A stretch of 64,000 bases of DNA, taken from contig LNDB01000001.1 in NCBI GenBank assembly GCA_001515265.1, positions 143,044 to 207,043 of the forward strand, given 5' to 3'. This DNA is from Candidatus Dichloromethanomonas elyunquensis. Its GTDB lineage: Bacteria; Bacillota; Desulfitobacteriia; Desulfitobacteriales; Syntrophobotulaceae. Position 1 is the first letter of the stretch; each line of letters opens with the position of its first letter. Below the pieces are notes generated by a model. It had not been told where the DNA came from and ran no database searches. It saw only the letters and a program-made list of their open reading frames with translations. A program made the position numbers and the translations under genes. This document shows positions 50,828-54,569 of this stretch, piece by piece.

Positions 50828-51028
50828 ATGAAAAGCGACTTTGCGATAATAACCTCTATCCAGCTTTACTGGATTCCGAATTATTATATCACTGGATTAT
50901 ATTTTTATCAACCAGTCTTTTTTTGCTATTCGCAATGATTTGGAAGTAGAACTACTCCGCCTCATATCAAGATAAAAAATTAGATATGAACATTTTGTAA
51001 TGTAAAATAGTTAAGTAAAATTTAATAG

Positions 51029-51057
51029 TTGATTTACGATTGAGAATTATCTATAAT
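51029..51057 (+). promoter_or_regulatory. SigmaA promoter of the tRNA-Asn/tRNA-Met operon
   Basis: TTGATT (51029-51034) and TATAAT (51052-51057) with exactly 17 nt between. The first tRNA begins 15 nt after the -10 box. Confidence 0.8.
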
Positions 51058-51071
51058 ACCTTCATAGATGT

Positions 51072-51146
51072 TCCTCGATAGCTCAACGGTAGAGCAACCG
51101 GCTGTTAACCGGTAGGTTGCTGGTTCGAATCCAGCTCGGGGAGCCA
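51072..51146 (+). tRNA. tRNA-Asn (anticodon GUU), CCA encoded
   Basis: Acceptor TCCTCGA/TCGGGGA, D-arm AGCTCAACGGTAGAGC, anticodon arm CCGGCTGTTAACCGG (anticodon GTT) and T-arm CTGGTTCGAATCCAG, ending GCCA. It is first of two cotranscribed tRNAs. Confidence 0.95.
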
Positions 51147-51154
51147 TTTGCTTT

Positions 51155-51229
51155 GGGCCTATAGCTCAGCGGTAGAGCGGCCGGCTCATAACCGGTTGGT
51201 CCCTGGTTCGATCCCAGGTGGGCCCACCA
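51155..51229 (+). tRNA. tRNA with CAU anticodon (probably elongator Met), CCA encoded
   Basis: Acceptor GGGCCTA/TGGGCCC, D-arm AGCTCAGCGGTAGAGC, anticodon arm CCGGCTCATAACCGG (anticodon CAT) and T-arm CTGGTTCGATCCCAG. It lacks the three G-C pairs of initiator tRNA in the anticodon stem, so it is elongator Met, or possibly the lysidine-modified Ile2 isoacceptor; sequence alone does not settle this. Confidence 0.9.
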
Positions 51230-51246
51230 AAATTGATAATTATTTA

Positions 51247-51281
51247 TAAAAATAGTTCTTATTTAAGGACTATTTTTTATT
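51247..51281. terminator. Bidirectional terminator between tRNA-Met and the nuclease-like gene
   Basis: AAATAGTTCTT/AAGGACTATTT (one wobble) with an ATTT loop and T/A tails on both sides. It closes the tRNA operon on the plus strand. It overlaps the stop codon of the minus-strand gene at 51277. Confidence 0.75.
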
Positions 51282-51876
51282 CTAGATAATTAGATATGAG
51301 TTCACACAGTTTGGGGATTGAGGATATCTTTCCAGCATTAGAATACTCGATACGTTTTGTTATGCTATTCCATTTCATAACGCCCAAATTATGTTCATGT
51401 AAGTCTAGCTCCTCTTTTGCTTTTCCCTGATGAACACCCACTATTCTAGTAATATTAGTAATGTCTGGGTTGTTATGCAAAATAGTTGTTAAACGAGGGC
51501 TAATTTGACCATCAACGTTAATCAATAAACCCAACTTAGAATCTGAAATTAAACAGTAGCCGATTAACTGGGACAGTTCTTTTAAGCCAACTGCCTTTAA
51601 GTCTTTAATCTCGCATATAAGGATTTCAAATAGGCCTTTAGCATTCATAATAACAATAAAAATATCTAAATCGAGAGGAGCAACTGCATCAGCAAAAACA
51701 GTTAAAAATAGACTAGGAAAAATTGACTTATCTTTTATAAGTTTATCAATACCTTTTTTCAACTCCCCTGTTGCACCAGTTATTAAGTATTTCTTTCCCA
51801 TAGCTTGAAAGTTACTATTCAACTGCAAAATTAAATAATCCAAAATCTCATTATAAAAAGTTTGCTCATTACTCAC
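51277..51876 (-). CDS. PD-(D/E)XK nuclease-like protein of a restriction-type cassette
   Basis: A 199-aa protein with no family I can name. The middle has the layout of a PD-(D/E)XK nuclease core: LDLDIFIVIM (Asp69/71), then a strand with FEILICEIKD (Glu89-x-Lys91), then a helix with Gln and Tyr (ELSQLIGYCL, Q103, Y107). The start is GTG in a 4-bp GTGA overlap with the stop of the upstream gene, so it is translationally coupled. It is the last gene after the C5-methyltransferase and LAGLIDADG-like genes. Its composition is markedly AT-rich compared with flanking housekeeping genes. It is the probable cleavage subunit; this is inferred. Confidence 0.72.
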   Translation of the reverse strand: MSNEQTFYNEILDYLILQLNSNFQAMGKKYLITGATGELKKGIDKLIKDKSIFPSLFLTVFADAVAPLDLDIFIVIMNAKGLFEILICEIKDLKAVGLKELSQLIGYCLISDSKLGLLINVDGQISPRLTTILHNNPDITNITRIVGVHQGKAKEELDLHEHNLGVMKWNSITKRIEYSNAGKISSIPKLCELISNYLE

Positions 51877-53270
51877 TCAAAATCCTCTTCTCTTATTGCT
51901 CTGACCTTATACCCAAATTCGCTGTCTTTTTCAATTAACTTTTTATAGACTCCAGGGTTTTCTGGTCCAACTAATGCTCCAAAATTAGTACCCAATATTT
52001 TAATCGGAGTAAGTTTATCAGGCATATAAATATTGATATGTTTAATTGTATCATTACTAATTGCATCTTCGATACTCCTTATAAAGTTACCTGATGTCCT
52101 CTTACCCCTTGAAGTCCTGCTTTCCATTGAAAGTACAGCTGCTAAGGCTTGTAATACCTTATTTACTGGATAACCGCTTTTATCTTTAGAATTTCCCCAT
52201 ATCAGAGTATTGGGGTCTCTTTTATATATCTCAATAAGTTTCTCAACTTTAACTTCATATTTTGTATATGTGCGATTCTTTAAAACTTCTTCAGATTCTA
52301 GAATCTTGTTTATTTGATCTACCCTTGCCTTTGTAATAACCGTGAAAGGCGTAATATAACATTCTAGATTATCTAAAATAGGTTTTAACTGGTTTTTAGG
52401 CACATATGGACAGCCAAACATTGCACATAAATGTTTATGATGGACAAAATGATAACCTCTTAGGTTTTTGGGAATCCAAAAATTATCTTCATCGATATGA
52501 ACCGGTTTAATACCATTAACATTTATCCGCCTATCTAAGCAAGAATTAGCTTCATGTTCCTCTGTCTTTTCCTTTTCAATATTTTCTTTAGCAGCTTCAA
52601 GTTTAGCATTAAAAACAAAAGAACCTTTTTTTGTATATTGGTCTAAGAGAACACGAATCTTGAATCCCTTTTTCCAAGTGCCATAATAGTGACCATAGTA
52701 ACGGTCATTGCCACTATGCTGATTTGGATGATTCCAAAGAATTTGGTCAGCAAAACATTTAATTTCATTCAAAAGCTGACAAATTTCAAAAACTAATCGG
52801 AAATTATCTCCCGAAAACTCAAATGAAATTATCTGATAATCATCATTAAATCTTCTATGAGAATTTACCACGCTTCCAATAGAATCTGCAAGACCTGCAA
52901 TAAACTGTCTCTTTAAATTTTCATCACACAAATAAGGAATGAGATTTTCTATACCGGCATTTTTTCGTAACTCTCCACCGTTAACAATCCCAAACTTATG
53001 TAAATCATCTGTTAGTTTTTCTAAATTACCGGTACATACTATGCTCCATTCAGGTTCAGGATTAAATGTTACTGATATATCATATTCGTTTTCAAAGACT
53101 GGTTTCACTTTAAGAAGAATATCAGATGCAATTTTACCAGCCCTAATGGGATTACTGATTACTTTTCCCCATCTTTTATATGGTAGAACAATAATCAAAT
53201 TTGACTTTGTGGGATTAATAATACCGCCGCCGATAATTAGACCTAGCAGATACGCTTTATCATTATTCAT
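51873..53270 (-). CDS. LAGLIDADG-like protein lacking catalytic acids, in a methyltransferase cassette
   Basis: A 465-aa protein. Two motifs with LAGLIDADG spacing are seen: KAYLLGLIIGGGI at residues 5-17 and RQFIAGLADSIGSV at 121-134. In homing endonucleases the penultimate residue of each motif is a catalytic Asp/Glu; here these positions are Gly and Ile, so cleavage by this fold is unlikely and DNA recognition is more plausible. The C-terminal 250 residues include HHKHLCAMFGCPY and basic stretches but no family I recognise. The ATG at 53270, eight nt after AAAGGAAG, is preferred to the track start, which overlaps the methyltransferase gene. It is AT-rich. Confidence 0.75.
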   Translation of the reverse strand: MNNDKAYLLGLIIGGGIINPTKSNLIIVLPYKRWGKVISNPIRAGKIASDILLKVKPVFENEYDISVTFNPEPEWSIVCTGNLEKLTDDLHKFGIVNGGELRKNAGIENLIPYLCDENLKRQFIAGLADSIGSVVNSHRRFNDDYQIISFEFSGDNFRLVFEICQLLNEIKCFADQILWNHPNQHSGNDRYYGHYYGTWKKGFKIRVLLDQYTKKGSFVFNAKLEAAKENIEKEKTEEHEANSCLDRRINVNGIKPVHIDEDNFWIPKNLRGYHFVHHKHLCAMFGCPYVPKNQLKPILDNLECYITPFTVITKARVDQINKILESEEVLKNRTYTKYEVKVEKLIEIYKRDPNTLIWGNSKDKSGYPVNKVLQALAAVLSMESRTSRGKRTSGNFIRSIEDAISNDTIKHINIYMPDKLTPIKILGTNFGALVGPENPGVYKKLIEKDSEFGYKVRAIREEDFE

Positions 53271-53289
53271 TTCTTTAACTTCCTTTGGT

Positions 53290-54294
53290 TTAGAAAACTT
53301 GCTTTTTGATTTCTTGAGCAAATACTTCCGCTAATTTTGGAGGTACTGCATTTCCTATTACCTTATACATTGAAGTTATATCCTTTAAAGAATTATCGAT
53401 AAATAAAAAATCATCAGGGAAAGTTTGTATTCTAGCAATTTCACGTATGTTATATCTTCTATTTTCCACCGGGTGAATTATGCCACAATTTTCTGGTTGT
53501 GCAGATGCTGTAATCGTTCCATTTATTTCTCTTCTTGAAAAACGTCTATAGAAATTTGGAGACCTATATTTTTGCATATTATCTCTTATCTTTTTTAATC
53601 TAGTTGGTAATAACTCATAAGGAATATCCTTCCAAGACCCGCCCTCTGGAATATGTTCAATAAGATTCCTCGCTTGTGGTGATAGCTTCCAATCTATTTG
53701 ATTAGGGATATTACCAGAAATATTCAGAAGATTCCCTACTTCAAGCCCATCTTTTTTAAAAACAGCCGGAAATTCAAAGGTATGTTTTAAATCTTTTCTA
53801 ATCCCTATCATGATGACTCTATAACGATTCTGCGGTACTTTATAATCACTTGCATTAACCAGCTTATAAACAACATTATATCCTTGTCCGATATTCTCCA
53901 GGGTTTCTTTTATTGTACATATTAGTTTATTTCCATTTTCGTCTTTTGTAGAAAGAATACCCCTAACATTTTCGAAAATGACTACTTTAGGATGTTTTTT
54001 TTCAATAATCCTAAAACATTCTTTATATAAAACACCACGTTTATCAAAAACGCCTTTTCTGTTACCTGCATTGGAAAAAGGTTGACAAGGAAATCCTGCA
54101 ATGAGTACATAACATTCAGGAATTTCAGAAGCACTTACATCTCTAATATCTCTTTCATCAATATTTCCCAGATTTAACTTATATATCTTCTGTGCATCTT
54201 TATCAATATCATCAGCGTATACTATTTCATATCCTGCATTTAAAAAACCTAAATCCATCCCACCGCAACCTGAAAATAAGGAAACAATTTTCAT
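53290..54294 (-). CDS. DNA (cytosine-5)-methyltransferase
   Basis: A 334-aa C5-cytosine DNA methyltransferase that protects host sites. Motif I is SLFSGCGGMDLGF, motif IV GFPCQPFSNAG (catalytic Cys), motif VI FENVRGIL, motif VIII QNRYRVIMIG, motif IX RREINGTITA and motif X VIGNAVPP. All are intact and in order, so it is likely active. The target-recognition region is about residues 185-265; the site recognised is unknown. The ATG at 54294 is chosen after GGAAGGG. It is followed 20 bp later by the LAGLIDADG-like gene. Composition is AT-rich, consistent with acquisition by transfer. Confidence 0.95.
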   Translation of the reverse strand: MKIVSLFSGCGGMDLGFLNAGYEIVYADDIDKDAQKIYKLNLGNIDERDIRDVSASEIPECYVLIAGFPCQPFSNAGNRKGVFDKRGVLYKECFRIIEKKHPKVVIFENVRGILSTKDENGNKLICTIKETLENIGQGYNVVYKLVNASDYKVPQNRYRVIMIGIRKDLKHTFEFPAVFKKDGLEVGNLLNISGNIPNQIDWKLSPQARNLIEHIPEGGSWKDIPYELLPTRLKKIRDNMQKYRSPNFYRRFSRREINGTITASAQPENCGIIHPVENRRYNIREIARIQTFPDDFLFIDNSLKDITSMYKVIGNAVPPKLAEVFAQEIKKQVF

Positions 54295-54439
54295 CTTATT
54301 CAGCCCTTCCAAGCATAATATGGCTCATGCACACATTCTACTTGGGTAGCTAAAATTCCTGCTCATGTTAATGCTTATGAAATGATTAAGTCTCGAATTT
54401 GATACACTCTGCCATAATTTTCCTAAAAACAACAAATAA

Positions 54440-54475
54440 GCGGATATGATTTAAACTAAAGTGAATCATAACCGC
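54440..54475. repeat. Imperfect inverted repeat upstream of the methyltransferase gene
   Basis: GCGGATATGATT (54440-54451) and AATCATAACCGC (54464-54475) pair except at two inner positions, with a 12-nt loop. It lies 145 bp upstream of the methyltransferase start and about 95 bp from tRNA-Gln. It could be an operator, a terminator or an old element end. The rest of the 54295-54569 gap is AT-rich with no gene seen. Confidence 0.55.
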
Positions 54476-54569
54476 CTCAAGTTAAAACATTTATTCTTTT
54501 TTTGCTAATATACAACCTTAGACAAACAGAACCAACAAAAAGGGCGGGAAACAGAATTTTAGCAATAAA

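Follow-up and report, generated by a model that had tools for sequence, protein, structure and literature searches.

Recognition and cleavage are shared between a large site-reading protein and a small PD-(D/E)XK cutter in BspD6I, BsrDI and BtsI, as described in sections of a 2014 review of Type II restriction enzymes (PMC4081073), and LlaJI uses a nucleoside triphosphatase (NTPase) with a B3 domain as its reader according to part of a 2025 publication (PMC12707154). WhiA, a relative of the LAGLIDADG proteins, is described in the title of the paper cited for it as having 'retained only DNA binding'. The 64,000-nucleotide stretch of the Candidatus Dichloromethanomonas elyunquensis genome analysed here (assembly GCA_001515265.1, contig LNDB01000001.1, positions 143,044 to 207,043 of the forward strand; hereafter the window) contains a three-gene cassette, which is probably a mobile Type II-like restriction-modification (R-M) system with a two-subunit endonuclease composed of a cleavage-dead LAGLIDADG reader and a PD-(D/E)XK cutter.

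The cassette occupies positions 51277-54294 of the window and consists of three minus-strand genes encoding a C5-cytosine methyltransferase (M), a 465-amino acid protein and a 199-amino acid protein. Both the genes and the flanking tRNAs agree with the original prediction, which had placed three coupled genes between tRNA-Asn/tRNA-Met and tRNA-Gln and had called the methyltransferase complete. M (53290..54294, with an ATG start at 54294) encodes 334 amino acids and matches PF00145 with E = 2e-80. It is followed by the gene for the acid-less LAGLIDADG protein, the putative DNA reader (51873..53270), and by that for the PD-(D/E)XK nuclease, the putative cutter (51277..51876), which has a GTG start. 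The TGA stop of the reader gene and the start of the cutter gene share a 4-nucleotide GTGA overlap (51873..51876), as had been noted, and the higher AT content claimed for the cassette is reflected in a GC content of 0.324, compared to 0.438 for the remaining window. By composition the cassette is an R-M system, and the methyltransferase adjoins the nuclease and is co-inherited with it, as in Type II systems. All cassette features described below are on the minus strand.

A 482-amino acid open reading frame (ORF) is possible for the large protein from an upstream TTG; the ATG at 53270 (M18 of this ORF) is the likely start of the 465-amino acid protein, because its relatives align from there. 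The AlphaFold2 (AF2) model, obtained with a 23-row alignment, has a predicted local distance difference test score (pLDDT) of 89.3 and a predicted template modelling score (pTM) of 0.86. I-Tsp061I is its best match in both Foldseek (E 3.3e-6, with 37 matches at E <= 0.001) and VIA-align (Z 15.9, root-mean-square deviation 3.0 Å, 185 residues), and every one of the best 50 VIA matches listed is a LAGLIDADG protein, WhiA included, as assigned by title or established knowledge. The alignment to I-Tsp061I delimits a double LAGLIDADG domain at approximately residues 1-239 (52554..53270), in which the order alpha-beta-beta-alpha-beta-beta occurs twice. Motif 1 reads LLGLIIGGG (residues 8-16; 53223..53249) and motif 2 IAGLADSIG (residues 124-132; 52875..52901), and position 8 of each nonapeptide, the place of the catalytic acid in LAGLIDADG enzymes, is occupied by Gly15 and Ile131, respectively, just as had been read from the sequence. 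Among 28 readers compared (23 rows of alignment A5 and five further rows of the short form described below), the catalytic position of motif 1 is G in 22, N in five and R in one, that of motif 2 is I in 21, T in five, V in one and A in one, and neither D nor E occurs at either position (0/28). The reader therefore lacks the LAGLIDADG active site.

Pfam agrees weakly with this assignment, with Hom_end matches in seven of 23 large proteins (best E 0.013), and the best PHROG match of the reader has E 0.0019. In WhiA the LAGLIDADG domain is followed by a helix-turn-helix (HTH) domain; no HTH match was found in the large protein by Pfam. PDB sequence searches with reader or cutter, as single sequence or profile, gave no true match, so that the fold assignments rest on the AF2 models. 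Within the operon, whose gene order is fixed, the reader gene comes second, between those for methyltransferase and nuclease, and no intron or intein setting was seen. As WhiA, a cleavage-dead LAGLIDADG transcription factor, is among the fold matches of the reader (Z 13.7 and 11.7), the large protein might instead be a WhiA-like regulator, i.e. the controller of its operon, and the small PD-(D/E)XK protein a restriction enzyme that needs no partner to locate its target, in the manner of small enzymes such as PvuII that act alone. We regard this explanation as unlikely in view of the gene linkage presented below.

The AF2 model of the small protein (pLDDT 92.0, pTM 0.88) is matched best in VIA-align by the nuclease domain of PaqCI (Z 10.7, 133 residues, 3.4 Å), followed among others by McrC (Z 7.9), FokI (Z 7.7) and the small subunit of BspD6I (2p14, Z 7.0); many PD-(D/E)XK enzymes score 7-9, and restriction enzymes and resolvases are found throughout the list. 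Structure prediction thus returned both folds that had been proposed from motifs. PDDEXK_3 (PF13366) matches all 21 small proteins compared at E up to 1 (best 1.4e-4), with the window cutter below the curated cutoff. The residues E38 (51763..51765), D71 (51664..51666), E84, E89 and K91 (E89-x-K91, 51604..51612), S102 and Q103 (51568..51570) are invariant in 21/21 small proteins, and with E38, D71, E89, K91 and Q103 this set contains what a PD-(D/E)XK active site requires.

Alignment-based scans identified 21 loci in the genome_contigs collection and one in viral_contigs; single-sequence scans of both with the window reader gave no match. Together with the window and the genome searches, 23 distinct loci were obtained that carry the long form of the reader found in the window, with L021 taken as the contig of L002 and L030 as that of L007. 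By record title, the carriers are Firmicutes (e.g. Syntrophomonas palmitatica and Parablautia muri), Bacteroidetes, Deltaproteobacteria, Alphaproteobacteria and Coriobacteriia (Actinobacteria), the methanogenic archaea Methanocorpusculum and Methanimicrococcus, and one viral contig; for many loci this phylum spread derives from bins of metagenome-assembled genomes, in which single contigs may be affected by binning errors. The long-form reader had no match in plasmids or phages, and the long-form cutter had none in plasmids. The reader is rare in the phylum of the window, where it was found at E <= 0.001 (single sequence) in three of 398 genomes, the window genome included, and the reader profile added a remnant in a fourth genome (G362) and a chance-level match in G366 (E 0.0996). 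Because AF2 gives both folds and the cassette recurs across phyla, it is not a product of chance.

A C5 methyltransferase gene is located upstream on the same strand in all 23 long-form loci, which, together with other kinds of methyltransferase beside the short-form loci, bears out the predicted linkage of homologues to methyltransferases. The cutter gene directly follows the reader gene in 21 of the 23 loci, and the remaining two (L007 and L028) stop at a contig end. In each of the 20 complete cassettes the reader and cutter genes overlap, by 4-17 nucleotides. Cassette GC content is lower than that of the flanks in 16/16 cassettes with enough flanking sequence, although the difference is under half a point in two cases. 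A tree of the 20 complete cassettes mixes phyla, with four changes for Bacteroidetes and six for Firmicutes, and clustering by phylum is no better than with shuffled labels. Over the same 20 cassettes, the pairwise distance matrices of reader and cutter correlate most strongly (r=0.91), followed by M and reader (0.87) and M and cutter (0.78), and none of 2000 permutations reached any of the three values; rates and shared history alone could account for part of this pattern. The regulator explanation is made less likely by this closer tie of the reader to the cutter than to M, and by a reader gene that overlaps the cutter gene in every complete cassette and remains its partner in loci with other methyltransferases. 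Furthermore, a small HTH gene, the more usual kind of controller, is present just upstream of M in five cassettes (L002, L014, L016, L022 and L027; HTH_17 is shown for L002).

Genes for a Vsr mismatch endonuclease, a companion of C5 methyltransferases, are found near five cassettes (L011, L015, L023, L024 and L027). One of these (L024, 180-7610) is decayed, with M spread over two frames, approximately 4.3 kb of unrelated genes between M and the reader, a lost reader start, and intact nuclease and Vsr genes; with M frame-broken and the reader start missing, it was excluded from alignments A5 and A7. Beside an archaeal cassette (L022, 8420-13243), genes encoding an 885-amino acid protein with HATPase matches, a 319-amino acid ORF and a second C5 methyltransferase were identified, and this neighbourhood is possibly a defence island.

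A second, shorter form of the reader was recognized through genome G116, in which locus L003 encodes an N4/N6 methyltransferase (PF01555, E 1.1e-35) directly before a 284-amino acid acid-less reader. A search with this reader matched two of 72,556 plasmid records, both from Lactiplantibacillus plantarum (NZ_CP060181, 6,495 bp; NZ_CP141333, 8,781 bp). Both plasmids encode a 700-amino acid double methyltransferase, in which an EcoRI-type N6 domain (PF13651, E 6e-118) is combined with a C5 domain (PF00145, E 3e-72), a 292-amino acid reader and a 168-amino acid protein. Two phages (2/50,697 records) contain the same trio, with methyltransferases that are 64-67% identical. In two viral contigs, a putative methyltransferase of 469/476 amino acids is accompanied by a 255-amino acid one, which shares 45-47% identity with the L003 methyltransferase, and by a 296-299-amino acid reader and a 158-amino acid nuclease. 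The long and short readers are related in hhalign (prob 99.9, E 1.7e-35, 275 columns) with the L003 row present in both profiles, and the long reader profile also detects the plasmid reader alone (prob 99.5, E 4.3e-22). The two branches agree in gene order, overlap (6/6 short-form reader/cutter gene pairs) and active-site spacing of the cutter, and D66, E83, K85 and Q96 are invariant in 5/5 short-form cutters.

In the G362 remnant (L042, 889-1629), an N4/N6 methyltransferase frame continues into the last part of a short-form reader, as a deletion would leave it. The gene after the short-form trio of one viral contig (L081, 5768-7387) was judged by eye to resemble that of an OLD-type ATPase. 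R-M-like modules lie near a genome end in three gut phages labelled Ca. Heliusvirales (L036, L083 and L084).

Aligned to the long form, the short readers stop near residue 288, at the beginning of the C-terminal region (residues 293-465; 51876..52394), which is absent from short-form relatives and barely covered by the fold search. BspD6I/BstNBI pairs a large reader-nickase with a 186-amino acid cutter according to the consulted part of the review (PMC4081073), and the large protein of the cassette might likewise cut with residues other than the LAGLIDADG acids, for instance in the C-terminal region, so that the enzyme would resemble BspD6I in having an active site in each subunit. The small subunit of BspD6I is among the structural matches of the cutter (2p14, see above), histidines 258, 277 and 280 are invariant in 21/21 long readers, and no fold was identified for the C-terminal region. 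However, no nuclease family model matched the C-terminal region in family scans of the long readers, and the short branch lacks this entire region yet has the same arrangement, and we therefore consider a second active site in the large protein quite improbable.

Beside reader and cutter, the methyltransferase is of C5 type, of EcoRI-type N6 fused to C5, or replaced by two putative amino-methyltransferases. Because the pair stays together while the methyltransferases change, reader and cutter form a portable unit, and the short branch is the strongest argument for regarding them as the restriction unit. It is fairly likely that the cassette represents a new, widespread class of restriction endonuclease, present in bacteria, archaea, plasmids and phages, in which a portable retired-LAGLIDADG reader and PD-(D/E)XK cutter occur together with three or more arrangements of methyltransferases. 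A further explanation would be that the LAGLIDADG gene descends from a homing endonuclease that parasitised an ordinary methyltransferase-nuclease pair, has since decayed and has no role in restriction. Invasion of methyltransferase genes by homing endonuclease genes is reported in part of PMC9957025, but the reader frame is open and conserved (35-80% pairwise identity over the 20 complete cassettes) and accompanies the cutter in two deep branches with a fixed overlap. Furthermore, a parasite would be expected to be missing from some cassettes, and three cutter-based searches revealed no cutter without a reader at strong E-values; weak cutter matches occur in G311 (E 0.0015) and G012 (E 0.008), and PADLOC matches of single cutters are weak (best E 0.0015). 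As most loci were found via the reader, they cannot themselves reveal cassettes that lack it. Overall, a decayed parasite is a very remote explanation, and the reading of the original prediction, a retired reader plus a separate cutter, is the best inference.

Pairwise identity of M ranges from 51 to 85% among the 20 complete cassettes. Residues 201-275, which by their position in C5 methyltransferases are the putative target-recognition region, are the least variable (median identity 83%, compared to 76, 51 and 73% elsewhere in M), which fits one target common to the cassettes. The presence of just one C5 methyltransferase points to a symmetric target, and the two methyltransferase domains or genes of the short branch point to asymmetric ones. 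The nearest methyltransferases outside the family (57-65% identical to the window M) are encoded on Staphylococcus and Fructilactobacillus plasmids and in a Ruminococcus phage (L034, L035 and L036). An AAA_5 (McrB-like) gene is present in all three loci, and McrC (PF10117) in L035 and L036, the two loci in which the third gene was scanned. One kind of methyltransferase is therefore served by two different reader-plus-cutter modules, and restriction modules may have been exchanged around it.

Based on these features, we propose that M would mark and protect the host copies of the target, as is typical of its family, and that the LAGLIDADG pseudo-dimer, with its single DNA saddle, would find the unmodified target, as its fold and acid loss suggest. 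The cutter, translated in a coupled manner from the mRNA that also encodes the reader, would dock on the reader and cleave, consistent with its intact active-site residues and its co-inheritance with the reader, and would perhaps act as a dimer or from two sites. Phage could thereby be restricted.

Several points weigh against this interpretation. The sites bound by LAGLIDADG enzymes are usually long, which sets them apart from typical R-M targets, and the C-terminal region of approximately 170 residues in the long reader could have a role of its own. No nuclease was detected beside the methyltransferase and reader of L003, and the long and short cutter profiles are only weakly linked (prob 30, E 5.5e-4). 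Foldseek alone gave no match for the cutter at E <= 0.001 (0/367), and its best rows are the RNA polymerase subunit RPB5; an RPB5 identity was set aside, as PaqCI and further PD-(D/E)XK enzymes stand above RPB5 in the VIA ranking. An analysis of palindrome depletion over 186,806 bases of flanking host sequence was uninformative on the target, with CTAG, GATC and GGCC lowest. Low frequencies of these three are common in many genomes, and since no control was made for this, no target is claimed.

In the window, a glycosyltransferase-like gene (named by eye) is followed by tRNA-Leu, tRNA-Asn and tRNA-Met on the opposite strand, the cassette and tRNA-Gln. In G206, a genome of the same family (L069, G206:C1:2680000-2695000), tRNA-Leu and tRNA-Gln are separated by 10 bp, and sequence resembling the glycosyltransferase-like gene is present on the same side of the tRNAs. 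The stretch of approximately 3.7 kb between tRNA-Leu and tRNA-Gln (50828..54569, no strand assigned), which holds the cassette and the tRNA-Asn/tRNA-Met pair, is therefore extra in the window and absent in G206, where the tRNA-Leu/tRNA-Gln junction is likely an empty site; in this single comparison, a deletion in G206 would be an alternative to insertion in the window. No convincing direct repeats flank the insertion in the sequence around it. The tRNA-Asn/tRNA-Met pair (51072-51229) has a second copy with 98% identity in the same genome (G000:C1:91894-92052), and the extra stretch may therefore have arrived together with a duplicated tRNA pair.

If the proposed reading holds, a whole family uses the homing endonuclease fold for site reading without cleavage and leaves cutting to a second protein, comparable to the pairs of DNA-binding protein and nuclease made by engineers. 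This would show how selfish homing enzymes could evolve into a means of immunity. One two-gene unit with different methyltransferases would also provide a natural set for learning how a LAGLIDADG saddle is set to short targets. As complete plasmid sequences are available from L. plantarum isolates (6.5 and 8.8 kb), the system is directly testable.

No described restriction system built like the cassette was found, in agreement with the original prediction: PADLOC and NCBIfam contain no model of the reader-cutter pair, and the literature covered, to which REBASE, subscription papers and preprints do not belong, yielded no LAGLIDADG restriction system. The word LAGLIDADG has no occurrence in the consulted text of the 2014 review (PMC4081073) or of the 2025 publication (PMC12707154). 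GmrSD, a Type IV system once said to carry LAGLIDADG motifs, is no precedent, as the relevant part of PMC4619093 reports none. PaqCI (Type IIS), whose nuclease domain ranks first among the VIA matches to the cutter, has its recognition domain in the same chain according to a section of PMC10201449. LlaJI-type systems (C5 methyltransferase, McrB-like AAA protein and McrC-like nuclease) share separate reader and nuclease genes and related methyltransferases with the cassette, but the LlaJI reader is an NTPase with a B3 domain, as far as the excerpt cited at the outset describes it, and the cassette reader is a LAGLIDADG protein without NTPase match. The cassette reader shares the double LAGLIDADG fold of the homing endonucleases (Z 15.9 for I-Tsp061I, 12.6 for I-DmoI and 14.5 for PI-SceI), but lacks both catalytic acids and is free-standing in an R-M operon. 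Like WhiA (DUF199), it would use a LAGLIDADG fold without nuclease activity for DNA binding; unlike this transcription factor, it is located between methyltransferase and nuclease genes. To our knowledge, there is nothing LAGLIDADG in the heterodimeric Type IIT/IIS enzymes BspD6I, BsrDI and BtsI. These enzymes, as portrayed in the review sections consulted, resemble the cassette in combining a large reader with a small PD-(D/E)XK cutter; their large subunit also cuts one strand, whereas the cassette reader is without the LAGLIDADG acids.

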